Positions 3,596 to 18,650 of a stretch of 21,786 bases of DNA are shown piece by piece. A model generated the notes under the pieces. The model was not told where the DNA came from. It ran no database searches and was given only the letters and a program-made list of their open reading frames with translations. Origin of the DNA: Caldilinea sp. CFX5 (GTDB lineage Bacteria > Chloroflexota > Anaerolineae > Caldilineales > Caldilineaceae); the NCBI GenBank assembly GCA_021405325.1, contig QWII01000140.1, positions 30,606-52,391 of the forward strand, read 5' to 3'. Each line of letters starts with the position of its first letter. Within the stretch, counting starts at the first letter, position 1. The translations under genes and the position numbers were made by a program.

Positions 3596-6235
3596 TCAAT
3601 TCGTCCGCAGTGTAGCAAAGATGGCTTCGAGTGACATCTGCTGCCCGGCGGCGAAGGCGTCGGCAAAGGCCGCCGGGGCCAGCGCGGCACGAATTGTCGT
3701 GGCGCAGGCGTCGATCAGCGGTCGCATGGGGGTTTTGTCGGCGTAGCCAATCCGGGTGGCAATCTGCTCCGCCAGACCCAAACGGGTGGCCGCCAGCAAA
3801 TAATGCGCTTGTTGCGCCGCCAGCCGGGCCGCCACAAAGAGAAAATCGGCAAATTCAATGGTGAACCAGCGCAAGCCGGCTTGATGGTTGATGCTCGCAG
3901 TCAGGTGGGTCTGCGCCAGCGTGAGATTGCCTTCGGCGAGAGCGATCTCGGCGACATAGCCATGAACACGCGCCACATATTCGTCGTTGCCCACGCCCTG
4001 GCAATGGCGCAAAGCATCATAGAGATAGTGATAGGCATCGGTGCTATTGCCGCTATGAAAGGTCGCCATGGCCAGGCGGGGCAGCCAATCACAAAGCCCC
4101 ATGCGATTATGAACGGCGGCAGCAAGATCGACCGCCTCTTGAAAGAAGTGGCGCGCTGGCGCAAGCGCGCGGCGGATGAGCGCCAGACGACCCAGGTTAC
4201 CAAGGGCATAGACGATGAAATCGCGATTCCCCAACGCATGAAAGAGCCGCAAACTGGCCTGTGACAGGCTTGCCGCCTTTTCATAGTCACCGACTTCATC
4301 AGTCAGCCGAATGGCATGGCGCGCCAACGTCATCGCCTGTAAATTGGCTACGTCCGCATAGAAACCGAAGTTGCTACCAAGCTCGTGCGCACCCTTCGGC
4401 TCGGCCAGGAGGGCAAAACAGGTGTCAAAGGCGGCAATGGCTTGATCGGCATCGGCGGCGACGTTGGCATAAAAGTACCAGGCCGCCGCCCGCAGGAGCT
4501 GCGAAGAAGAGCTTTCGCGCAACGCCGTGAGTTCGTGTTGATATTGTTCAATGGCGGGGAAATTGCCGAGACCACGCCAGCAACGGTAGAGCGTCACGAG
4601 CAGCGCAAAACGCAGATTGGCTTCAAAGTGGTGACGATGGGGCAGCAATTGTTCCAACCAATAGGCCCCTTCGTGCCACCGCGCGCCCATGTGCCAGCCA
4701 TGATTCTGGGCGAGGCCCAGCCAGGCGGCGTCGACAAAATGACCGCTGTCAAGCGCCCACTGCCAGGCCGCCGTTAGGTTATCGTACTCAAGATGCAGAC
4801 GCGCTGCCCATTGGAGACAATCGCTCCTGCGCAGATGGTCATCCACGGCACGGGCAAATTGCAGATAGGTGTGAAAATGGCGCTGTCGCATCAATTCGCT
4901 CTCGGCGTTGCGCGTCAGTTGTTCCAGGGCGAATTGACGCAGCGTTTCCAGCAGATAATAGCGTTGTTCGCCGGTGGGCAACGCTTCGCTGTGGATCATG
5001 CTTTTGCCAAGCAACGAGCGCAGCACCGAAATGAGCGAGTGCTGGTGCAGATGCGCTTGCCAACGGCTCACCTGTTCGATGGCGCTCAAATCAAAGCCGC
5101 CGGCAAAGACGCCCATCGTGCGAAAGAGGGCGCGTTCGACCGCGTCGAGCAGATGGTAGCTGCGCTGAATCGTCGTGTACAGCGTGCGCTGGGGCGGGGG
5201 CAGGTCGTGGGGGCCATCCACGAGTAAGGCCAGCGGACGCGTTTGCACTTCTTGATGGATTTGTTCAAGCGAGAGCAGATCGCTCTGCGCCGCACACAGT
5301 TCAAGCGCCAGCGGCAGGCGATCCAGCCGTTGGCAAATCAGTTCAATCGTTCCAAGATTGTGCGCCGCAAGGCTGAAGTTTCCCCCAACCGCCTGCGCAC
5401 GCTGGCAGAAGAGTTCTACCGCGGCTTCAAGTTCCAGTGGCAGCACCTTGTGGCGTTGCTCGGCGCGCAGATGGAGCCGTTCACGGCTTGTGGCAAGAAT
5501 ATGCAGTTGCGGACACTCGGCAAGTAACTCCGCAATGAAAGAGGCTGCACCCGTGATCTGCTCTAAATTATCCAAAACCAACAACATAGCGCGGCGACGC
5601 AAGGATTCGATCAACCGGGTTTTGGGCGGTTTGGCGCTAAAATTCTCTTTGGCGATGACAGCGAGAATGGCATCAGCCATCAACGCGGCCTCGCTGACCG
5701 CAGCCAGGGCGACAAAGAACACACCATCGGGATAGGAAGGCTGTAAGATGTGCGCCACGGCCAACGCCAACGAGGTTTTCCCTACGCCCGGCGGGCCAAT
5801 CAGCGTCAACAGCCGTCCCTGGTGACCCTGTAAACGATGGCAGATCTGGTTGATTTCAGCCTGACGACCGATGATTTGGGTTGGTGGATGGCGGAGGAAG
5901 GGGCGCGCATCGGGGCGGGCCGTGGCGGTAGGGTGGCTGGTGTGACGGTGCGTGATCTGCGCGGGCGTGCTTTCCCCCCGTGCGGCGGCCGCCTGTTCGA
6001 TCAGGCAGGCAGTCAAGGCATCATCGTCCTGTAAGCCGAGGGCCGGCACAAAGCGCTCGGCAATGGCCTGTAAATTGGGCAGCCGCTGATTCTGTTCCAA
6101 CTGTCCGATGAGGGAGAGGCTGTACCCCACGGCCGCGGCCAGATCACTTTGCGTCATCCCTGCGCGTTTCCGCAGTTGTTTGAGCAAAGCGCCAAAGGAA
6201 ACCGCTGTCGGGAAAGGTCTCGCAACACTTGGCAT
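3596..6235 (-). CDS. XRE-HTH / NB-ARC ATPase / TPR regulator
   Basis: This 879-aa cytoplasmic STAND-type signal-transduction ATPase is of the form common in Chloroflexota. Residues about 14-70 form an XRE (Cro/CI) helix-turn-helix (LLKQLRKRAGMTQSDLAAA, then GYSLSLIGQLEQNQRLP). The nucleotide-binding domain has a Walker A GPPGVGKT at 147-154, a Walker B strand LLVLDN with D222 and a sensor strand LHILATSRERLHL. A winged-helix region follows (FRTMGVFAGGFDLSAIEQVS), then LLETLRQFALEQL. From about residue 480 to the end, helical TPR-like repeats are rich in alanine and leucine, ending AAFADAFAAGQQMSLEAIF. Such proteins usually bind DNA on ligand or partner sensing. It is divergent from sulfotransferase 1 across a 240-bp gap and convergent with the peptidase relic, so it may control the sulfotransferase side. 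Its start has only a weak ribosome site (AAGG). Confidence 0.88.
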   Translation of the reverse strand: MPSVARPFPTAVSFGALLKQLRKRAGMTQSDLAAAVGYSLSLIGQLEQNQRLPNLQAIAERFVPALGLQDDDALTACLIEQAAAARGESTPAQITHRHTSHPTATARPDARPFLRHPPTQIIGRQAEINQICHRLQGHQGRLLTLIGPPGVGKTSLALAVAHILQPSYPDGVFFVALAAVSEAALMADAILAVIAKENFSAKPPKTRLIESLRRRAMLLVLDNLEQITGAASFIAELLAECPQLHILATSRERLHLRAEQRHKVLPLELEAAVELFCQRAQAVGGNFSLAAHNLGTIELICQRLDRLPLALELCAAQSDLLSLEQIHQEVQTRPLALLVDGPHDLPPPQRTLYTTIQRSYHLLDAVERALFRTMGVFAGGFDLSAIEQVSRWQAHLHQHSLISVLRSLLGKSMIHSEALPTGEQRYYLLETLRQFALEQLTRNAESELMRQRHFHTYLQFARAVDDHLRRSDCLQWAARLHLEYDNLTAAWQWALDSGHFVDAAWLGLAQNHGWHMGARWHEGAYWLEQLLPHRHHFEANLRFALLVTLYRCWRGLGNFPAIEQYQHELTALRESSSSQLLRAAAWYFYANVAADADQAIAAFDTCFALLAEPKGAHELGSNFGFYADVANLQAMTLARHAIRLTDEVGDYEKAASLSQASLRLFHALGNRDFIVYALGNLGRLALIRRALAPARHFFQEAVDLAAAVHNRMGLCDWLPRLAMATFHSGNSTDAYHYLYDALRHCQGVGNDEYVARVHGYVAEIALAEGNLTLAQTHLTASINHQAGLRWFTIEFADFLFVAARLAAQQAHYLLAATRLGLAEQIATRIGYADKTPMRPLIDACATTIRAALAPAAFADAFAAGQQMSLEAIFATLRTN

Positions 6236-7558: not shown

Positions 7559-8380
7559 ATGTCCACATCAAATGCGCAGAAAAATCTCGGACCTGTGATG
7601 GCAACGAGTATAGAAGCAATCGAAGATCGACTCTGGCTTTACACCTTTCCCGACGGTTTTCGTTGTTACAGCCATTCCGCTGCGCAGGAAACCCAACTGA
7701 TCTACAACGAAATCTTTGTCAAAGCGGAGTATCTCGGCGATACGCTTTCGCTGGATCACTGTCGCTATGTGGTGGATGTGGGCGCCAACATCGGCATCTT
7801 TACACTCTTTGCCAAGTTGCGTAACCCCAATGTGGTCATCCATGCCTTTGAACCGATCAAAGCCACCTATGATGTCCTGTTGAAAAATATCGCGCTGCAC
7901 GGCTTGACCGATGTCTACCCACATAACGATGCGCTTGGCAACGAAGATGGCGCCGAACGTACATTGACCTTTTACCCGAATGCCGCCGGTATTACGACAG
8001 CCTATCCGGAGAGTAAGGAAGCGCTGAAACGCCATTTGACCGAGGTGCTCGGACAAGAGACGGCCAATTATATCTTTCACGCGCCGCAGGTACACAACGT
8101 ACAAACCCGTGCGCTCTCTGCGCTTCTCGACGAGTTAGCCATTCCGGCGATCGATCTCCTCAAAATCGATGTCGAAGGTGATGAACTGGCTGTATTACAG
8201 GGGATTGCGCAGCAGCATTATCCGCTTGTGCGCCAGATTAGCGCAGAAGTGCATAGCGATGCCCTTTGGGTAGAGATACAACCCCTCCTCACCCGTCTGG
8301 GATTTCGTGTGCTTTCCAGCATAGGCATTGCCAATTTCGAAAGCGCAGGCGGCAACAATCTCTACGCCATCAGACAATAA
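7559..8380 (+). CDS. FkbM-family SAM methyltransferase
   Basis: This 273-aa class I methyltransferase is of the FkbM type, which O-methylates sugar or polyketide hydroxyls. The SAM-binding motif I is VVDVGANIGIFTLF (about residues 70-83), followed by IHAFEPIKATYDVL with the acidic residue that contacts the ribose. The FkbM signature LLKIDVEGDELAVLQGI is near residue 205. The C-terminus GGNNLYAIR is also typical. ATG 7559 has a weak ribosome site. It is the first gene after promoter copy A and lies 14 bp before the oxidoreductase, so the two form an operon. Together with the neighbouring sulfotransferase it suggests tailoring of a glycan, glycolipid or small metabolite. The exact substrate is not readable. 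Confidence 0.88.
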   Translation: MSTSNAQKNLGPVMATSIEAIEDRLWLYTFPDGFRCYSHSAAQETQLIYNEIFVKAEYLGDTLSLDHCRYVVDVGANIGIFTLFAKLRNPNVVIHAFEPIKATYDVLLKNIALHGLTDVYPHNDALGNEDGAERTLTFYPNAAGITTAYPESKEALKRHLTEVLGQETANYIFHAPQVHNVQTRALSALLDELAIPAIDLLKIDVEGDELAVLQGIAQQHYPLVRQISAEVHSDALWVEIQPLLTRLGFRVLSSIGIANFESAGGNNLYAIRQ

Positions 8381-8394
8381 AGGAGAATCGAACC

Positions 8395-9419
8395 ATGACG
8401 GAAGCAATCCGCATCGGCGTGATCGGTACAAGTTGGTGGGCAGACCTTGGTCACCTACCCTTCTTAACATCAGATGATCGCGCAAAGGTGGTTGCCATCT
8501 GCGGACGCCATCGGGAACGGGCGCAGGCGATGGCAGCCAAGTATCGCATACCCCAGGTTTTCACTGACTATCATGAACTGATCGCAAAAGGCGACGTACA
8601 AGCCGTTGCCATCTTGACCCCGGATGATGAACATTTTGCCATGACAATGGCCGCGCTCGACGCCGGATTGCATGTTCTCTGCGAAAAGCCGCTGGCGCGC
8701 AACGCGGCTCACGCCAAGCAGATGTACGAACGAGCCGAAGCGCAGGGTGTCCGCCACATGACCTATTTCACTTGGCGTTGGTTGCCGCACTATCGCTATC
8801 TGCGCGATGGCGTAACCCCGCCTACGCCTGGCGCTTTGACCCGCAACGGGCTAGCGGCGTCCTTGGTGACTATGGCTCGCACATGATCGACCTGGCCCAT
8901 TATCTGGTGGGCGATATTGGGCGGGTCCAGGCACGGCTGACCACCAGCGCCCCCCGCAATGGGCTGGATGGCCGACCGCTCTACGGCGCTTGGGATGCCG
9001 CGACCCTCTTGCTCAAATTTCGCTACGGTGGCGAGGGCACCATTGAACTCAGCGCCGTGGCACGCACCCATGATCCGGCGCTGGAGCATACGGTCGTCCT
9101 GCATGGGGAAGCCGGTTCGTTGACCGCGGCTTTTGGTCTCTTCACCGCCGCGCCCACCGTGCAACTTGCCACCGGCGACAACGGCTTTCAGGAACTGGCC
9201 ATTCCGACTGCGTACCTGTCGGGGCTTGATCCGGCGCAACCGGTAGGGTCGCAAATGGACGCGCTCTTCCGCCAGCCGGGCCTGGGCAGCCGCAGCTTTG
9301 TCGATGCCATTCTGGCCGGGCAGAGCGTTGCGCCCAGCTTCTACGAGGGGTGGCAGACACAGCGGGTGATCGACGCGGCGTTGGCAGCGTATGAACGGGG
9401 CGGGTGGATGGATGTCTAA
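8395..9419 (+). pseudogene. Gfo/Idh/MocA oxidoreductase broken by internal deletion
   Basis: The N-terminal part (8395 to about 8805, frame 1) has the Rossmann NAD(P) motif IRIGVIGTSWWA, AVAILTPDDEHF, and the dinucleotide-fold EKPLA motif in VLCEKPLARNA. The C-terminal part (frame 3, about 8808-9419) begins RNPAYAWRFDP and contains GVLGDYGSHMIDLAHYLVG with the catalytic-type histidine region, ending at TAA 9417-9419. The junction around 8798-8812 reads HYRYLRD then W-RNPAYAW. Family members carry roughly 20-30 residues between these motifs, so an out-of-frame deletion is the likely event. The combined length (341 codons) is shorter than the usual 360-380. The start ATG 8395 has a strong AAGGAG. 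These enzymes oxidise or reduce sugars and derivatives; this copy is probably inactive. Confidence 0.8.
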
Positions 9420-9570: not shown

Positions 9571-9603
9571 TCAGAAGAAACGATGGTCAAGGAGAGAATG
9601 ATC

Positions 9604-9840
9604 ATGACACTTAACTTTGCAATTGAAACCGTGATGCAGTTACCCTACCCGCAACAAGAAATGTTGCTGGAAATCATTCACCGCCGCCACATTGAACAGC
9701 GCCGCAAAGAAATGGCTCAGGATGCCCAAAGCACATTGGCGGCCTTTCGGCTGGGGCAATTTTCTCCCCAACCTGTGCAAGCCGTGATCGATGAGCTACG
9801 TGCTGCATTGAATGAACCAGACAAAGCCGACGAAGCATGA
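9604..9840 (+). CDS. Antitoxin-like small protein
   Basis: This 78-aa protein begins MTLNFAIETVMQLPYPQQEM. It is highly helical and charged (IHRRHIEQRRKEMAQDAQ) and ends in an acidic tail typical of antitoxins that wrap a toxin. The ATG at 9604 is chosen because AAGGAG (9589-9594) sits 9 nt upstream; ATGs at 9583 and 9598 are placed badly for it. The stop overlaps the next gene's ATG by 4 bases (ATGA). Similar sequences occur in Chloroflexota and Cyanobacteria beside RelE-like toxins, which supports the role, but I see no named DNA-binding domain. It probably autoregulates its own promoter at 9542. Confidence 0.7.
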   Translation: MTLNFAIETVMQLPYPQQEMLLEIIHRRHIEQRRKEMAQDAQSTLAAFRLGQFSPQPVQAVIDELRAALNEPDKADEA

Positions 9841-10121
9841 GAGCGCTTGTCCTCACCCCTAAATTTAAACGCGCATTTCGCAAATTTGTGCGGCGCAATC
9901 CCCGTTTACAAAGCCGCATTGAAGAGACTTTGACGCAGATGCAAACCGATGTGTTTGCCCTCCACCTGGCTACCCACAAGCTTAGTGGGGAACTGTTCGG
10001 CTTACAAGCCTGTTCCTGCGGATACGATTGTCGGATTGTGTTTACTATCGAGCAGGACGCGAATACAAACCAAGAGGTAATTGTTCTCCTCGATATTGGC
10101 ACACATGATGAAGTGTATTAA
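9837..10121 (+). CDS. RelE/YafQ-type toxin (mRNA interferase)
   Basis: This 94-aa basic protein has the RelE/ParE superfamily layout. The N-terminal strand and helix read LVLTPKFKRAFRKFVRRNP. A central HKLSGELFGLQACSCGYDCRIVFTIE matches the GxLxGxxxxRxxxYRIVY-type core. A C-terminal strand VIVLLDIGTHDEVY follows, in which the terminal His and Tyr match the YafQ/RelE active-site positions. It would cleave mRNA at the ribosome when free. It is translationally coupled to the antitoxin by a 4-base overlap. There is no obvious damage to the frame. ParE-like gyrase inhibition is a less likely alternative. Confidence 0.75.
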   Translation: MRALVLTPKFKRAFRKFVRRNPRLQSRIEETLTQMQTDVFALHLATHKLSGELFGLQACSCGYDCRIVFTIEQDANTNQEVIVLLDIGTHDEVY

Positions 10122-10287: not shown

Positions 10288-12963
10288 CTACGTAGCGTGG
10301 TTGATCGCACTTGTTGTTGTGCAACAGATTTGATATACCTGCGCCGTCTGCATGGCAATGTTGTCCCATTGGTACGATATGTGGATTTCATCAAGTGCAC
10401 GGATACGCCGTTGTTGCGCCGCCGCCGGATCGATAAAGAGTAAATGCACTGCCTGCCGAATGCTCTGAGGATCATTGGGCTGGCTCGTTAGCCCATTTTC
10501 TCTATGATTCACTACCTCAGCTAAACCGCCGACATTGCTGGCGATTACATTACAACCGAAGGCCATTGCCTCCAAAGCGACGCGACCAAACGGTTCATAT
10601 AAGCTCGGAATGATCATGGCATCCACAATTTGATAAAGACAGTCGCGGTGGTAGTCGCTGACATGGCCCAGAAAATCGATTGATTTATCTACATGCAGTT
10701 CGTACGACAATGAATGGATTTTATCGCTATATTTGCCAACAACTAACAAACGCGTGCCAGGATGATCGGCCAAAATATGGGGCATGGCACGGATTAACAC
10801 AGGCAACCCCTTTTCAAGGATCGCAGGGCCAATAAAAAGCAATAACTTCTGCGCTTGCGGTGCATATTGCTGACGCAGCAATGACAATTCCTCTGGGGGA
10901 TAGTCTTCCTTTCGCTTCACCTTTATCCCATTCGCAATCACTTTGATTTTGTCCAATGGAGCGCCTAAATGCGCGTTTAACTGCTGGCGCATAAATTGGC
11001 TGCAAACAATTAGCTGCTTCGCCTCGGTGCAAAGCTCACGCTCGAATTGTTCAATCTGATCAATCTCAGCGGGTGGATCTTGTTGATATCGTTTGCGTTC
11101 AATTAAATGGAATGTGGCAAGCAAAGGTAAATGCCAACGATATTTTAGCGCAGTGCCAATCTTGGCGAATCGCCAATCTTGAATGTGTATTAGATCATAG
11201 TGGTGTTGCTGGATGAGACCATTGGCGCGTTCAACAATGGGTACAAGACCGGCAATTAGGCCGCTAACTGGGTAAGGTGGAACCAAGTACACATCCACAC
11301 GAAAAGCAGTAATTGCGGGAGTGATCTGTTCTTCTAACTCACCTCCGGCAAAGCGCGGGGCTAACACATCGATTAGCAATGGTCTATCATCAAGTACAAC
11401 CTGACCAAGCGCCGATATAAGATCTGCCACATGTTTACCACTGCCACCGGTGATGAAAGGAGGATATTCCCAACTAAGCATAAGGATACGCAATGCTTTC
11501 TGCTTTGACCTCGTTGAAACTAAACTGGCTGCTGCTTTGTCCGTTGCATCTGCTACGTTTTCGCTAGAGTCAAGAACGTGAGACAGGGTTGTCCTCAATC
11601 GATGTAATTCTTCCTGTGCTTGTGCAGTAAAATATGTCTCATGACGCGCTCGGCTTTCCTGTAAATCATTGCGCTCGGTTAACTTCGCCGCAGCGAATTG
11701 GCGGGCATATTCATGCATTTCAAATTCACCCGTCAAATTCCGGTATAGTAGCGATTTGTCAACCAGTGCAGACAATACGGATAGAGAAGCGTCAGCTACA
11801 TAGACAGCAGCTTCACGCGTAAATTTGCCACGAAAGACAGATAATTGAGCAAAGAGCCGCTGCTCTTCCGGTGAAAGCAATCCCCACGAATGCTCAAAGA
11901 CAGTGTAGAGGGAGCGGTGTCGTTCAGGTATGTCGCGCAATGTACTCGTCAGAAAATGCAGATTGTGTTCAATCTCCCAGGCGATCTCTGCGCATGAGAG
12001 GAGGTGAACCCATGATGCGCTCAGTTCAATGGCCAACGGCAGATAATCAACCAAATGACAAATCTTCTGAATAGTCGCGTGATTTTCCGGCGACGCCACG
12101 AAATCGGGGGCAACGGCTTCAGCGCGTTGGATAAACAACGCTGAGGCAACAGTAGCCGGCAGCGGCGGCACTGGAAAGCGCTGTTCAGCACGCAGATGTA
12201 AGCGTTCTCGGCTGGTCACCAATAGACACAACTTTGGACATTCAGCCAATAATGTTGCCAACAGTGGTGCGGCGGCAATGATCTGCTCAAAATTGTCGAG
12301 TAACAACAGTAACTCTTTTTGGCGCAACCCTTGCAACAAGCGCTGCTGCGCTGTTTGCTTACCTGTATCGACTAATTCAAGTTCGTCGGCAATGGCGGCG
12401 GCAACCAGTTCAGAATCGACGAGCGCCGCTAATGGCACAAAGCGCGCACCATCTTTGAAGAATGATTCTAGATGACGCGCCACTTCCAGTGCCAGGCGTG
12501 TTTTGCCGACACCCGGCGGCCCTACTAATGTGAGGAGCCGACCACTATGTCCTTGCAAGCGATTGCATAAGGCTTGCACCGCCTGATCGCGCCCAAGCAA
12601 CGCCGCGGGTTGGCTCGGTAACCGGGATGCTTTGTTTGTGAACGTTTCGGTGACGACGAGTTGCGTCGTGCGCTGGAGGGTAATCGAGGCTGGTGGACGC
12701 TCACCACGCGCCAACGCCGCCTGTTCGATGAGGGCCGCAGCCATGGCGGGATCATCCTGCAAGCCCAGCGCCGGGATAAAGCGTTCGGACACCGCCTGGA
12801 GATCGGGTCGGCGTTGGGCCTTTTCCAGGCTAGAGATGAGCGCGATGCTATAGCCCAGCGCGGCGGCGAGGTCGCCTTGGGTCATGCCAGCGCGTTTGCG
12901 CAACTGCTTCAGTAGAACGCCAAAGGTATGATCGGTTGAGCTATGGGTGGATCGTGGCGCCAT
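10288..12963 (-). CDS. XRE-HTH / NB-ARC ATPase fused to GT4 glycosyltransferase
   Basis: In this 891-aa protein, residues about 14-70 are an XRE HTH (LLKQLRKRAGMTQGDLAAA) almost identical to the one in the gene at 3596. The STAND ATPase has Walker A GPPGVGKT (148-155), Walker B LLLLLDN (D223) and LCLLVTSRERLHL, then a winged-helix part to about residue 450 (HEYARQFAAAKL). Where TPRs should follow there is a linker and then a full GT-B glycosyltransferase from residue 491. It has LRILMLSWEYPP and GGSGKH at the start, IHIQDWRF, an acceptor-side FHLIER, GPAILEKGLPVLIRAMP, and the GT4 E-x7-E motif EPFGRVALE (E790, E798). The GT half is A/T-richer: 21 of 60 G+C at 10681-10740 versus 38 of 60 at 12481-12540. 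The start at 12963 has an AAGAGG site; an upstream in-frame ATG at 13035 lacks one. It is divergent from promoter copy B. The roles of the GT half (enzyme or sugar sensor) are unknown. Confidence 0.85.
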   Translation of the reverse strand: MAPRSTHSSTDHTFGVLLKQLRKRAGMTQGDLAAALGYSIALISSLEKAQRRPDLQAVSERFIPALGLQDDPAMAAALIEQAALARGERPPASITLQRTTQLVVTETFTNKASRLPSQPAALLGRDQAVQALCNRLQGHSGRLLTLVGPPGVGKTRLALEVARHLESFFKDGARFVPLAALVDSELVAAAIADELELVDTGKQTAQQRLLQGLRQKELLLLLDNFEQIIAAAPLLATLLAECPKLCLLVTSRERLHLRAEQRFPVPPLPATVASALFIQRAEAVAPDFVASPENHATIQKICHLVDYLPLAIELSASWVHLLSCAEIAWEIEHNLHFLTSTLRDIPERHRSLYTVFEHSWGLLSPEEQRLFAQLSVFRGKFTREAAVYVADASLSVLSALVDKSLLYRNLTGEFEMHEYARQFAAAKLTERNDLQESRARHETYFTAQAQEELHRLRTTLSHVLDSSENVADATDKAAASLVSTRSKQKALRILMLSWEYPPFITGGSGKHVADLISALGQVVLDDRPLLIDVLAPRFAGGELEEQITPAITAFRVDVYLVPPYPVSGLIAGLVPIVERANGLIQQHHYDLIHIQDWRFAKIGTALKYRWHLPLLATFHLIERKRYQQDPPAEIDQIEQFERELCTEAKQLIVCSQFMRQQLNAHLGAPLDKIKVIANGIKVKRKEDYPPEELSLLRQQYAPQAQKLLLFIGPAILEKGLPVLIRAMPHILADHPGTRLLVVGKYSDKIHSLSYELHVDKSIDFLGHVSDYHRDCLYQIVDAMIIPSLYEPFGRVALEAMAFGCNVIASNVGGLAEVVNHRENGLTSQPNDPQSIRQAVHLLFIDPAAAQQRRIRALDEIHISYQWDNIAMQTAQVYQICCTTTSAINHAT

Positions 12964-13056
12964 AGGTTCCTCTTGGTTGGGTACACGGTGACAGAGAGGC
13001 CGTTGGGAAAGCTGCCTGGAATTATACCTGAACATGCGTCAGTCAACAAACCGGAT

Positions 13057-13121
13057 TTCCACAAAATTGTGGAATTTTTGTGTAAAAATCGCTTGCATTG
13101 GGCCGCCGCAACGGCTAGAGT
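13057..13121 (+). promoter_or_regulatory. Promoter element copy B (before the dikinase operon)
   Basis: The 11-bp-spaced repeats TTGTGGAA (13067) and TTGTGTAA (13078) precede -35 TTGCAT (13093-13098), a 17-bp spacer and -10 TAGAGT (13116-13121). Only in this copy the first repeat is also half of a palindrome, TTCCACAA-AA-TTGTGGAA (13057-13074), a possible operator. It sits in the 233-bp gap divergent from the fused XRE regulator. Confidence 0.75.
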
Positions 13122-13160
13122 TGTTTCCCATCGCGCACATCACCGCGAAACGCACGCTAT

Positions 13161-13182
13161 TTATGCACAGATTATGCACAGA
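13161..13182 (+). repeat. Tandem 11-bp repeat in leader
   Basis: TTATGCACAGA occurs twice back to back (13161-13171, 13172-13182), 13 bp before the ATG at 13196 and touching the AAGG ribosome site. Each unit includes TTATGCACA, which fits the TTATNCACA DnaA-box form. It may be a protein-binding site or an RNA feature. Confidence 0.7.
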
Positions 13183-13195
13183 AAGGTTACCCCAA

Positions 13196-13696
13196 ATGAA
13201 TCAGCCCAAGCACTCCCATCGCGCCATCAGTATGGTTGCAGCCGTCGTGGTTCTGCTGGCAATCAGCCTCAGCAGCGCCGCACCGGCCTTGGCCAAAGCC
13301 ACCGTCATTCACGAGAAGTACGCCGTTCCCGTGGATGAGATTATTTACTCGGATTGTGCCGGTGAGGCGATCCATTTCACCGGTGCATTCCATGTCGCCG
13401 CCCACACAACCATGGATGAAAATGGCGGTTTTCATACCACCTTTGTGGGCAACGATCACAATGTCACCGCCGTCGGTCTATCGACCGGTGCGATCTATCG
13501 TCGGGTCGGCGTGACGCATGTCAGCGATAACTTCAGCGGTCAGCTTCCCTATCAAACCTCCTATACCAACTCGTTCAGCTTCATTGGTCGGGGTATGGCC
13601 GCCAACACGCTGGAGATCGATATCGTCCGGCTCCACATTGATGAGAATGGGGTGTCAACGATCGTCTTTGAAAATCGCATCCTTGAATGTAAGTGA
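13196..13696 (+). CDS. Secreted protein of unknown function
   Basis: This 166-aa exported protein has a textbook Sec signal peptide: basic MNQPKHSHR, hydrophobic core VAAVVVLLAISL, and cleavage predicted after ALA (A33). The mature part of about 133 residues is rich in beta-forming stretches (IHFTGAFHV, FHTTFVGND, SFSFIGRGM, IVRLHIDENG, TIVFENRILEC). It has exactly two cysteines, C54 near its start and C165 at its end, likely closing a disulfide around a beta barrel or sandwich. Small secreted proteins with this pattern are familiar from Chloroflexota and Actinobacteria, but I know no function. The start is chosen for the signal peptide and AAAGG site. As first gene of the operon after promoter copy B, it may bind or carry the product outside the cell. 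Confidence 0.78.
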   Translation: MNQPKHSHRAISMVAAVVVLLAISLSSAAPALAKATVIHEKYAVPVDEIIYSDCAGEAIHFTGAFHVAAHTTMDENGGFHTTFVGNDHNVTAVGLSTGAIYRRVGVTHVSDNFSGQLPYQTSYTNSFSFIGRGMAANTLEIDIVRLHIDENGVSTIVFENRILECK

Positions 13697-13704
13697 GATC
13701 AGCT

Positions 13705-14619
13705 ATGCCCAATCACATATCGCTTGCAAGCGCCCTCGACCCTGTGACCGATGGTGAGGGCCAATCATCCCATCCTGCCGGCCAGCCGATTCGTTGGCTT
13801 GGGCAGGCGAATTGTTGCGACTCAGCGCAGGTGGGCGGGAAAGCGGCCAATTTGGGCAGACTTGCCCTACGTTATCCTGTGCCTGCCGGCTTTTGCCTGA
13901 CTGCCCCAATGTTGAACCGCCAGCATCCGGCAGACCATCAAGAGAGGGTTCTTCATGCCTATACCGCCCTTAGCCAGATGGTTGGCCATGTAGAGCTGAG
14001 TGTCGCTGTCCGCTCCTCCGGCATTGATGAAGATGGCAAAAGTGCCTCGTTTGCCGGGCAATATGAAAGCTTTCTCAATGTGCGGGGCGCGGGCGCCGTG
14101 TTGACGGCTGTGGAAAAGTGTCTCCACTCCGCCTTTGCGCCGCGCGCCGTCGACTACCGCCTACAAGCCGGCCTCAACAGCGCCGACCTTCGGTTAGCCG
14201 TGTTGGTGCAACAGTTGGTTCCTGCGGATGTCAGCGCCGTGATCTTCAGCGCCAATCCAATCAATGGCAATCGTGAGGAAACGGTGATCACCGCCAGTTG
14301 GGGTTTAGGCGAAAGCGTGGTCGGCGGCACCGTGACCCCGGACACCTACATCGTACACCGGTCGCCCCCGCCCAGGATCACCGCACAGATCAATGACAAA
14401 GCGCGCATGACCGTAGCCACCGCTGCCGGGACTCATGAAGTGCCGGTGCCGCGGCTGCTCCGCAAGGCGCGCACCCTGACCGATACGCAACTCCTGGAAA
14501 TGACAGACCTGGCCGCCACACTCCAATGCGAGATGGGCTACGCTGTCGATCTCGAATGCGCCTGGCATCAGGGCAAGCTTTTTCTTTTACAATGTCGTCC
14601 GATCACAACGTTAGCTTAA
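13705..14619 (+). CDS. ATP-grasp subunit of split RPH-like dikinase
   Basis: This 304-aa protein is the PEP/pyruvate-dikinase-type ATP-binding domain (PPDK_N family) standing alone. Recognisable parts are the ATP-contact loop VGGKAANLGRL with K46, PVPAGFCLT, VAVRSSGIDEDG with R103, SFAGQYESFLNV, VSAVIFSANPI, ASWGLGESVVGG, and the end LLQCRPITTLA with Q296 and R298. In rifampin phosphotransferase this domain passes the beta-phosphate of ATP to a histidine on a swivelling domain; here that domain is in the next gene, 40 bp downstream. Thus the two proteins should form one enzyme. ATG 13705 lies 8 bp after the secreted-protein stop; a GTG at 13693 overlapping that stop is the alternative start. 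Regulation is presumably from promoter copy B. Confidence 0.85.
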   Translation: MPNHISLASALDPVTDGEGQSSHPAGQPIRWLGQANCCDSAQVGGKAANLGRLALRYPVPAGFCLTAPMLNRQHPADHQERVLHAYTALSQMVGHVELSVAVRSSGIDEDGKSASFAGQYESFLNVRGAGAVLTAVEKCLHSAFAPRAVDYRLQAGLNSADLRLAVLVQQLVPADVSAVIFSANPINGNREETVITASWGLGESVVGGTVTPDTYIVHRSPPPRITAQINDKARMTVATAAGTHEVPVPRLLRKARTLTDTQLLEMTDLAATLQCEMGYAVDLECAWHQGKLFLLQCRPITTLA

Positions 14620-14659
14620 ACGCCATCGCTTGAAAACCATTTACCCAAGGAGGTCATCT

Positions 14660-16369
14660 ATGGAAACACCCCAACCCATGCCGGGTCAACCAATCCCGAT
14701 CCCGCCCGATTTCCCGCTTGAATGGCGCAAACCATCTGACCCAGGCAACTTCTGGACGCGCGACATCATGCACTTCCCCTATCCCAGCGCCCCGCTCGCG
14801 GCATCCTTTCTCGATACCGTTATCGAACCAGGCATGAATCATGGCGCAGCGAAACTGGAGATGCCTGTGCGCTTTCAGTGGCGAGTGTTGAACACCTATG
14901 TTTACAGCACAACAACCCCGGTGCTGGGGGCAGATGGCAAGCCGCTCCAGCCGCCGCCTGATGCCGATCCGACCCAAAGCCCGATGTTCCAGACCATCAT
15001 GAACCTGGCCAACATCTGGGAAAATCAACTGCTGCCGGAGACAAAGCAACTCCTGGCCGCTTGTGAAGCCATCGATCTGGCCGCAACCACGCTTGAGGAG
15101 CTTGTCACCTATTTTGACGACTTTGTGGCAAAGGCAACGCGCGCCTGGCAAATTCACTTTGAAATCGCCCACGCCATGCTGCCCGCCATGAGTATCTTTG
15201 ATGACTTTTATCAGGAAGTTTTTGGCGCAGGGGCATTGGGCGCCTACCGTCTCCTGCAAGGGCTGGATAACAAGTCGCTGGAAGCTGACCGGCGCTTATA
15301 TGCCCTTAGCCGCCTGGCCCAAAGTACACCAGCGGTGTTGAAAATTCTGGAAACGCAGCCACCCAATCAGGTGATGACGGCCTTACAAGCATCGGCGGAA
15401 AGTCACGCCTTCTTGTCGGCGCTGAATAGTTGGCTACAGGAGTATGGTCAACGTGGGGAGCTGTTTGATTCGTTGACCAGTGTAAGCTGGATTGAAGATC
15501 CGACACCTGCCATTCAGAATCTGCAAGGGTACATCTTGCGCAACGATGACGATGCGTTCGACGCCCATCGACAAGCAATGGCAACCGAACGGGAACAGTT
15601 GATTGCCGACGCGCGCACCACCCTGGCAACCTATCCTGAGCCTGTGCGCATGCAGTTCGAGGGATTGTTGCGCAGCGCCCAGGCGGCAACGGTGATCCAA
15701 GAAGATCACAACTACTGGATCGACCAGCGCGCCGTCTATCAACTGCGCCGCGCCTTTCTCGAAGTGGGGCGCCGGTTGGCCGCTTACGGTTCCATTGCCG
15801 ATCCGCTGGATGTGATCTACCTGAGCGTTGCCGAGGTGCGCAACGCATTGCTGGCGCTCTTGCGCACACCTCAGGCACTACAAGCGCGCATCGCCGAACG
15901 CCAGGCCATTGCTGCACACTATGCCACCATTCAGCCGCCGTTCATGGTAGGCACGATGCCCGAAGGCCCGCCTCCCGATGACCCAGGCACACGCGCCGCC
16001 TTACGCTTCTTTGGCACGCCGCCTCAACCCAGTGGTGATCCCGACACGATCAACGGCGCGGCAGGGTCTCCCGGCAAAGTGCGCGGCAGCGCCAAAGTGA
16101 TTCGCACCTTAGCCGAGGCGGGCAAACTGAGCAAGGGCGACATCCTGGTAACAGAAACGACAGCGCCGCCCTGGACGCCCCTCTTTGCCACCGCCGCCGC
16201 CATTGTTACGGATGCCGGCGGGATTCTCAGCCATTGTGCGGTCGTCGCGCGCGAGTATGGCATTCCGGCAGTGGTGGGTACCTACACTGCGACCCATCTG
16301 CTCTATGATGACATGCAGATCGAGGTCGATGGCGACAACGGCATGGTGCGCATCCTGGAAAAAGCATAA
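14660..16369 (+). CDS. Substrate and phosphohistidine subunit of split RPH-like dikinase
   Basis: In this 569-aa protein, residues 1 to about 450 are a helical domain (FPLEWRKPSDPGNFWTRDI, HFPYPSAPLAASF) resembling the substrate-binding middle part of rifampin phosphotransferase-type enzymes. Residues about 470-569 are the mobile phosphohistidine domain: GSPGKVRGSAKVI, ILVTETTAPPWTPLF, and GGILSHCAVVARE with catalytic H525, then GIPAVVG. The order ATP domain, substrate domain, His domain and the combined length (304 + 569 = 873) match single-chain rifampin phosphotransferases. They do not match PEP synthase, where a TIM barrel follows the His domain. The substrate is unknown; it could be an antibiotic or an operon product. 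The start has a perfect AAGGAGGT 8 nt upstream. The MFS gene follows after 4 bp. Confidence 0.85.
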   Translation: METPQPMPGQPIPIPPDFPLEWRKPSDPGNFWTRDIMHFPYPSAPLAASFLDTVIEPGMNHGAAKLEMPVRFQWRVLNTYVYSTTTPVLGADGKPLQPPPDADPTQSPMFQTIMNLANIWENQLLPETKQLLAACEAIDLAATTLEELVTYFDDFVAKATRAWQIHFEIAHAMLPAMSIFDDFYQEVFGAGALGAYRLLQGLDNKSLEADRRLYALSRLAQSTPAVLKILETQPPNQVMTALQASAESHAFLSALNSWLQEYGQRGELFDSLTSVSWIEDPTPAIQNLQGYILRNDDDAFDAHRQAMATEREQLIADARTTLATYPEPVRMQFEGLLRSAQAATVIQEDHNYWIDQRAVYQLRRAFLEVGRRLAAYGSIADPLDVIYLSVAEVRNALLALLRTPQALQARIAERQAIAAHYATIQPPFMVGTMPEGPPPDDPGTRAALRFFGTPPQPSGDPDTINGAAGSPGKVRGSAKVIRTLAEAGKLSKGDILVTETTAPPWTPLFATAAAIVTDAGGILSHCAVVAREYGIPAVVGTYTATHLLYDDMQIEVDGDNGMVRILEKA

Positions 16370-17602: not shown

Positions 17603-18650
17603 ATGACAAAAGATCAATCCAATCCATTGCCCAGTGCAACACCCACTACACCGCCCCCGCCCGCCATCCTGCTCCAGATGATGACCGGCTATTGGGTCTC
17701 ACAGGCGATCTACGTCGCCGCCAAGCTGGGAGTGGCCGACCTGCTGGCCGACGGGCCGCAGCCGGTTGAGGCGCTGGCGACGGCGACGCAAGTCCATGCC
17801 CCCTCGCTGCACCGCGTGTTGCGGGCGCTGGCCAGCGTGGGCATCTTCACCGAAGCAAAGCCCACGCACCTTTGCCCTGACCCCCATGGCCTCTCTGTTG
17901 CGCACAAACACGCCAGATTCGATGGCCGCGCTGGCTATCATGTACGCCGAAGAACAGTACCGCGCTTGGGGCAACGTCCTCCACAGCGTGCGCACCGGTG
18001 AGACTGCCTTTGAAGACCATTTCGGCATGAGCTACTTTACCTACCTCGGCCAAAATCCCGCCGCTGATCGTGTCTTTAACGCGGCCATGACCGGTTACAC
18101 GACGCAACTCGTCGGCGCCGTGCTAGCAGCCTATGACTTCTCGCCCTTCAAGAGCGTGGTGGATGTCGGCGGCAGCTATGGCACCTTGCTGGCTGCGATT
18201 CTACAGCAGAATCCAGCGTGCCGCGGGATTCTGTTCGACCAGCCCCATGTCGTCGCCGCTGCCGGTGAACAACTGGCGCAGAACAGCGTGGCCGAACGCT
18301 GCACGACCGTCGGCGGTGACTTCTTTGTCGCGGTGCCAGCCGGCGGCGACGCCTACCTGCTTGCGCAGATCCTGCATGATTGGGACGACGAACGCAGTAT
18401 GACCATCCTCCGCCACTGTCGCCGCGCCATACCCCAACACGGGAAACTGTTGGTGATCGAACTGGTGCTGCCACCAGGGGAGGACCCCTTTATCGGCAAG
18501 TGGTTGGATCTGCACATGTTGGTGCTGCTGGGGGCGCGCGAGCGCACAGCAACAGAGTATGCGGCGCTCTTCCATGCGACAGGCTTTGAACTGACGCGGG
18601 TGATTCCCACGCCGGCGGGAGCAAGTGTGGTGGAGGCTGTGCCGGTCTGA
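17603..18650 (+). pseudogene. SAM O-methyltransferase, frameshifted
   Basis: This is an acetylserotonin/CrtF-type O-methyltransferase in two frames. Part 1 from ATG 17603 (AAGGAG upstream) holds the dimerisation winged helix: MMTGYWVSQAIYVAAKLGVADLLADG, LHRVLRALASVGIF, ending EAKPTH. Part 2 resumes +1 as FALTPMASLLRTNTPDSM, then the SAM motif VVDVGGSYGTLLAAIL, the family catalytic-histidine region ILHDWDDERS, HGKLLVIELVLP, and ends at TGA 18648-18650. One extra C at 17869-17870 explains the break. Without it the protein would be about 348 residues, normal for the family. It may be a true recent inactivation or a sequencing error. In context it would methylate a small-molecule hydroxyl within the dikinase/MFS operon, of which it is the last gene. 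Confidence 0.82.

Follow-up and report, generated by a model that had tools for sequence, protein, structure and literature searches.

The present analysis describes a gene of Caldilinea sp. CFX5 in which a STAND regulator and a GT4 glycosyltransferase (GT) are encoded in one open frame of 891 aa (10288..12963, minus strand), as judged from the ORF, Pfam and relatives. The gene lies in a stretch of 21,786 nucleotides, here called the window. Our favoured reading, to which we give slightly better than an even chance, is that the product would be a one-component STAND regulator having as its sensor a former glycosyltransferase that binds a nucleotide sugar and probably has little or no activity left. 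Nucleotide-sugar sensing by a GT domain in the sensor position had been proposed in a first-pass annotation, and it is this proposal that we favour, the ligand itself being a deduction. As far as comparison of sequences can establish, the architecture and its conservation, the single origin of the GT, the exchange of heads and the loss of specific active-site residues, with donor-sugar residues retained, are secure.

The longest ORF of the fusion frame starts at 13035 and encodes 915 aa. The ATG at 12963 was preferred as start because the nearest relatives, P0002 and P0003, start at the matching residue; the other XRE-headed fusions start downstream of this position. By eye, AAGAGGA, a ribosome-binding-like stretch, lies directly 5' of this ATG. 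Pfam was run on the 915-aa form, and 24 was subtracted to give the 891-aa numbering used here, in which HTH_31 covers residues 14-71, NB-ARC 126-254, Glyco_transf_4 506-683 and Glycos_transf_1 701-851. One uninterrupted frame from 10288 to 12963 with XRE-HTH, NB-ARC and GT-B modules had been claimed, and this was borne out by ORF and Pfam. The TPR half is absent, as had also been claimed: Pfam found no TPR family in the fusion protein, and gene 3596 of the same window has TPR_12. On the minus strand, the XRE-type HTH (12751..12924) is followed by the NB-ARC ATPase core (12064..12624, residues about 114-300), with Walker A GPPGVGKT at 148-155 and Walker B LLLLLDN at 218-224. The Walker A Lys154 is present in 10/10 rows covering that position and the Walker B Asp223 in 11/11. 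The winged-helix region (11629..12063, minus strand, residues 301-445) is of the SARP-regulator kind and carries MHE at 416-418; its His417, which we take to be the nucleotide-sensing His of an MHD-type motif, was found in 11/11 rows. A linker (11494..11628, minus strand, residues 446-490) leads to the GT-B glycosyltransferase (10309..11493, minus strand, residues 491-885), a glycogen-synthase/MshA-like GT4 that has the GT-B fold by which GT4 membership is judged. Structure prediction across 450-500, suggested earlier as a check, gave a helix to about residue 461 and low confidence after it (pLDDT <50 at 455-487), in a model of the fusion that is moderate only (pLDDT 67, pTM 0.45).

The G+C samples given by the first-pass annotation, 38/60 at 12481-12540 and 21/60 at 10681-10740, are correct, but the recent join concluded from them is contradicted. 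In 50-codon windows, G+C is 0.59-0.68 over residues 1-150, 0.48-0.59 over 151-300 and 0.44-0.52 beyond 300. The drop is gradual within the STAND part, so that G+C is already low ahead of the GT boundary near 491, and there is no step at the boundary. The XRE-type relatives, some with as little as 53% identity, and the single GT clade described below also speak against a recent join. Start-like codons around the boundary are TTG456, CTG460, TTG491 and ATG495, and by eye there is no good ribosome-binding site. The position of Leu491 is R, I or F in P0005, P0009 and P0012, so a start codon at this position is not conserved. Judging from these codons, a separate GT made from an internal start within the fusion frame is unlikely.

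A protein search with residues 440-880, in which only the 7,990-7,997 candidates sharing most words were scored, gave 68 matches, and 12 of these 68 matching clusters, together 19 sequences, have this GT joined to a STAND regulator. Nine of them (the query and eight at 53-94% identity) consist of XRE, STAND core and GT4 in 877-900 aa. Besides the query, nine clusters from several sources carry the XRE-type GT, with 53-94% identity over residues 440-880; P0004 is a shorter frame that starts within the winged helix. A different head is found in P0012, which has BTAD (SARP), AAA and GT4, and its relative P0011 starts within the ATPase. A second search from P0012, scored on the same number of candidates, gave no added fusion in 45 matches. 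When residues 290-500 were searched, the GT was found in 10 of the best 120 of 4,670 matches, all of them found before; TPR families are given for most of the remaining 110. No full-length fusion was found in overlapping samples of 6, 396, 46 and 400 Chloroflexota genomes, at E cut-offs from 1e-70 to 1e-112; in the 396- and 400-genome searches, scoring was confined to the two best candidates of each genome. An organism name is attached to a single cluster, P0008, which comes from a Caldilineaceae MAG. Among 841 plasmid records with a match, none covered 80% of the query. A 736-aa frame at L041 was considered as a further GT fusion and rejected, since the frame crosses a run of N, a scaffold gap; its GT part alone was used.

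Standalone GT relatives, 41-51% identical to the fusion GT, are present in numerous genomes of the class; the 46-genome order to which G331 belongs has the nearest ones. A tree was built of 51 GTs, comprising 12 fusions, 27 standalone GTs and 12 of the Bacillota type, the last taken from 46 rows. In it the fusions form one clade (100/99), which is nested inside the standalone GTs and adjoins L041 and L045. The tree establishes a single origin of the fusion GT within the standalone glycogen-synthase-like GT4s of one Chloroflexota order. The N-terminus was found in 18/27 standalone rows, where the Leu491 column is Met in 15, Val in two and Leu in one. Since the standalone GTs mostly have Met here, the join lies at the former GT start codon. 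For the standalone GT4 of the G331 order, the best NCBIfam model is glgA_Coryne, at 174 bits and below cut-off. A repeated gene order is shared by three standalone loci (L058, L059 and L060), with mltG as a neighbour in 2/2, a pyrimidine-nucleoside phosphorylase in 3/3 and a periplasmic-binding-like gene in 2/3; in L059 the gene at the last position is without an assigned family. From the shared neighbours mltG and phosphorylase, the GT ancestor seems to have been a glycogen-synthase-like enzyme whose chromosomal place was fixed, and it could have had a 'housekeeping' role.

The active site was compared between the 12 fusions and 73 standalone relatives (27 from loci and 46 mostly GH57-linked Bacillota-type); P0052-P0068 (17 of 68 matches) and P0076-P0104 (29 of 45) were left out of the 73 rows, and equivalent MshA columns were found by counting in the alignment. 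The GT had been called complete, with an E-x7-E motif at E790 and E798. The positions of the motif are correct (Glu790 to Glu798, 10570..10596, minus strand) and the fold and the motif stand, but not every active-site residue is kept. The Arg of GR..EKG, in the column of MshA Arg231, is Pro713 in the fusion (10825..10827, minus strand); it is present in 73/73 standalone relatives and in 0/12 fusions, where Pro (7) or Ser (5) takes its place. This Arg is not universal among GT4. The second His of HxHDW is Gln595 (11179..11181, minus strand), being His in 73/73 standalone relatives, Gln in 10/10 XRE-type fusions and His in both BTAD-type fusions. The HATExGR motif is altered at Leu620 (11104..11106, minus strand), Ala in 73/73 standalone relatives; Ala620 is changed in 12/12 fusions and Gly624 in 10/12, both being invariant among the 73. 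His595, Thr621 and Gly624 are retained by the BTAD-type fusions. On the other hand, Lys718, Glu790, Glu798, His619, Gly506 and Gly507 are retained in 12/12 fusions. A pseudoenzyme by 'loss of catalytic His' was rejected, as MshA His133 aligns with the kept His619 and not with Gln595. In excerpts of PMC9883506, MshA Arg231 and Lys236 are described as binding the donor pyrophosphate, and the mannosyltransferase ManT, an active GT4, is reported to keep two of three pyrophosphate-binding residues (Gly, Lys). Going by these excerpts, the activity of ManT with two of three residues means that loss of the Arg is no proof of inactivity. With E-x7-E, Lys and the catalytic-His column intact, the fusion GT may still transfer sugar.

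Altogether, 5/46 columns invariant in the 73 standalone GTs are altered in at least 80% of the 12 fusions; among 13 control clades, of which six are single sequences, 12 have no such column and one has a single one. The change is unequal between the two halves. At matched overall identity, the C minus N identity difference is 0.171 for 29 fusion pairs vs 0.095 for 189 standalone pairs in the 0.5-0.6 bin, 0.152 vs 0.088 at 0.6-0.7, 0.109 vs 0.025 at 0.7-0.8 and 0.061 vs 0.026 at 0.8-0.97, the pairs not being independent. In the 0.4-0.5 bin it is hardly larger (0.166 vs 0.148, from six fusion pairs and one standalone pair). Against L041 and L045, the fusions show 44.3% identity in the acceptor domain and 60.1% in the donor domain; L041 and L045 against the other standalones show 53.7% and 61.6%, respectively. 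By this measure the donor half of the fusion GT is held and the acceptor half is loosened, which is clear in four of five identity bins.

The STAND part is a mosaic. Over residues 112-300, the nine XRE-type fusions have a mean identity of 53.7% to eight XRE-TPR regulators vs 36.5% to ten SARP-type ones, whereas over residues 301-445 they show 34.2% to XRE-TPR, 44.6% to SARP-type and 48.4% to BTAD fusions. The XRE-TPR and SARP labels were assigned by search origin and 10 rows were checked later: 8/8 XRE rows have HTH and TPR (TPR_12), and both SARP rows, which are partial sequences, have BTAD, with TPR in one. Trees of the two regions agree with the identity comparison. In the ATPase-core tree the fusions are split over two positions within the XRE-TPR regulators, window gene 3596 adjoining one of these, and in the winged-helix tree they group with the SARP side (100/99). 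The STAND trees were built without L027, P0004 and L002, which repeats L006; for the ATPase-core tree P0011 was dropped as well. XRE and BTAD fusions formed one group in 0/200 bootstrap trees of the whole STAND part. P0002 and P0001 have 94% identity over residues 440-880 but merely 41-43% over 151-240, and by this comparison the ATPase segment 151-240 of P0002 is a case of recombination within the STAND core. With the ATPase head divergent and the GT alike, winged helix, linker and GT make up a stable unit on which the head is exchanged. In both region trees the XRE-headed L008 and L010 belong to the SARP side, which means that head mixing also occurs outside the fusion family. As for the order of events, the GT would have come first, on a SARP-type body, and the XRE head would have been gained later.

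Two shorter STAND proteins were also observed. P0113 (752 aa) has an XRE head and ATPase core and then a second STAND core, without GT; its head and core are 66% identical to P0008 over 299 residues, by which it is another product of head exchange. P0107 (498 aa) ends right after the winged helix, where it is 63-65% identical to the fusion, and is without sensor; P0113 is likewise reported to end there. As regards an operon-pair origin of the fusion, a short STAND gene beside a GT gene, every row of a P0107 search in 46 genomes has an open frame of at least 659 aa.

For the regulator that we favour, the following working can be proposed. The XRE domain would bind DNA, and the NB-ARC/winged-helix core would be the ADP/ATP switch, which would undergo opening and multimerisation. 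Sensing would fall to the C-terminal GT-B domain, which stands where an arm and TPR repeats are usually found. The ligand would be a nucleotide sugar, in all likelihood the one that the ancestral enzyme used as donor. Descent from a glycogen-synthase-like enzyme points to a glucose nucleotide, e.g. ADP- or UDP-glucose. GT-B enzymes undergo domain closure upon donor binding, and such closure of the two halves is a movement that could release the STAND switch by allosteric coupling. Catalysis by the fusion GT is probably weak or lost. An action of the GT on the winged helix would account for the co-inheritance of winged helix, linker and GT under swapped heads. The wider proposal, that a glycogen-synthase-like GT became a nucleotide-sugar sensor on a single occasion and that a winged-helix-GT cassette under XRE or BTAD heads now constitutes a class of regulators, is one for which the chances seem to us a little short of even. 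Such a class would be the glycosyltransferase counterpart of the enzyme-derived MocR and ROK regulators. If true, this is a case of an enzyme turned into the part of a STAND switch that senses the ligand, and the sequence shows which unit is conserved (winged helix and GT) and which is exchangeable (DNA-binding and ATPase head). It would be uncommon for a transcription regulator to sense a nucleotide sugar directly. A STAND protein whose sensor has a known fold and probably a small ligand would lend itself well to studying how sensors release the core.

Other explanations have to be weighed against this. The GT could be a trigger enzyme, active with a changed acceptor, its turnover state controlling DNA binding or a regulatory partner being glycosylated. 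The conservation of E-x7-E, Lys718, His619 and both loop glycines in every fusion agrees with this, as does the long-term conservation of the fusion itself, and the altered acceptor-side motif could signify a new acceptor. However, the donor-diphosphate Arg that all 73 standalones keep is lost from every fusion and the acceptor domain is loosened, and we consider a trigger enzyme unlikely, though deserving of attention. That the gene is a chimeric assembly, or a fresh non-functional join, is scarcely credible. G+C does differ between the gene ends and full-length copies did not turn up in the Chloroflexota genomes searched, but this reading is already refuted by the relatives: nine further clusters with the XRE-type GT come from several sources, in eight of these a single frame holds both head and GT, and the fusion GTs are one clade. 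The same domain order in eight other clusters likewise disposes of an assembly error at about 11500-11600, which had been raised earlier as a danger, and their XRE head and GT in one frame of 877-900 aa argue for a single product.

The bare architecture, taken at first as not described, is in print. Kaur and colleagues reported GT4 fused C-terminally to STAND AP-ATPases as predicted conflict effectors (PMC8195603, eLife 2021), and what stands of the novelty claim is the XRE/BTAD-headed lineage with its altered GT. Read after that model, the fusion would be a STAND immune-type protein from which the GT4 is released as effector on sensing an invader, with the XRE domain serving autoregulation. 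The order of STAND and GT4 is the same, the GT exceeds the cut-off of the GT4-conflict model PF20706 (36.9 vs 26 bits), and a RelE/YafQ-like toxin gene is nearby. But PF20706 gives a higher score, 46.4 bits, to the standalone GT in L059, which is of the parental kind, and the fusion itself matches PF00534 much better, at 121 bits, so that PF20706 does not single out the fusion. An effector is moreover expected to retain its catalytic site, no TPR or other sensor remains, and PADLOC, run on one neighbourhood, matched HTH models only. We regard an effector as improbable for this lineage, and sensing by the GT, if right, would offer an alternative to the effector reading of other STAND-GT4 fusions.

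The DNA-binding STAND-GT4 lineage with an altered standalone-type GT counts as a new form of such fusions. It shares with the published fusions and PF20706 a GT4 C-terminal to an AP-ATPase type STAND core. It differs in having an N-terminal XRE or BTAD DNA-binding domain and no TIR or caspase, and in a GT that nests among standalone glycogen-synthase-like GT4s and has an altered active site. The term 'XRE' does not occur in the main text of PMC8195603, and no literature on an XRE- or BTAD-headed STAND-GT4 regulator was found, as judged by titles and abstract starts. With the Chloroflexota XRE-NB-ARC-TPR regulators (gene 3596-6235 of the window; L011, L012 and L014) the fusion shares the XRE-HTH and ATPase core, and in windows of 60 residues along 1-300 its identity to L011 and L014 is 46-73%; unlike these regulators it is without the TPR half, has a winged helix of the SARP-regulator kind and has the GT in the sensor place. 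With the SARP (BTAD)-NB-ARC regulators it groups by its winged helix, and P0012 combines BTAD, AAA and GT, whereas the window protein has no BTAD and has a C-terminal GT. The standalone GT4 of the G331 order, nearest in the tree, has the same fold but is a single-domain gene that retains Arg, HxH and HATExGR. In MocR/GabR regulators an HTH is joined to a former enzyme as sensor, of aminotransferase fold, and there is no STAND switch. MalT of E. coli, a STAND activator with a C-terminal LuxR HTH, resembles the fusion in that a STAND switch drives transcription and a sugar ligand is read after the core, but its sensor is arm and TPR and that of the fusion would be the GT-B domain. Excerpts of PMC6468293 place the sensor of STAND proteins usually in the part after the core, and excerpts of PMC10427625 place maltotriose binding by MalT there.

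A divergent intergenic region of 70 bases (12964..13033) is a candidate operator or promoter; in and around it no consensus promoter and no inverted repeat were found. By position, the target of the regulator is perhaps the divergent candidate operon at 13034..16369 (plus strand), which encodes a 220-aa protein without assigned family, a PPDK_N protein and a PEP-utilizer protein. The latter two look like a PEP-synthase-like (PigC/RedH/Rph-type) enzyme split into two genes. An MFS exporter, an O-methyltransferase and a sulfotransferase follow, which gives a small biosynthesis-like cluster. An O-methyltransferase lies over the overlapping frames 17603-18001 and 17766-18650 (plus strand), with the dimerisation domain in one and the catalytic domain in the other, and it seems to be split by a frameshift in the gene or in the sequence. 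Just downstream of the fusion, at 9583-10121 (plus strand), an 85-aa ORF without Pfam family precedes a YafQ/RelE-like toxin of 94 aa, and the two genes look like a type II toxin-antitoxin pair. The ORF at 8772-9419 (plus strand) is the C-terminal part only of a GFO/IDH/MocA oxidoreductase.
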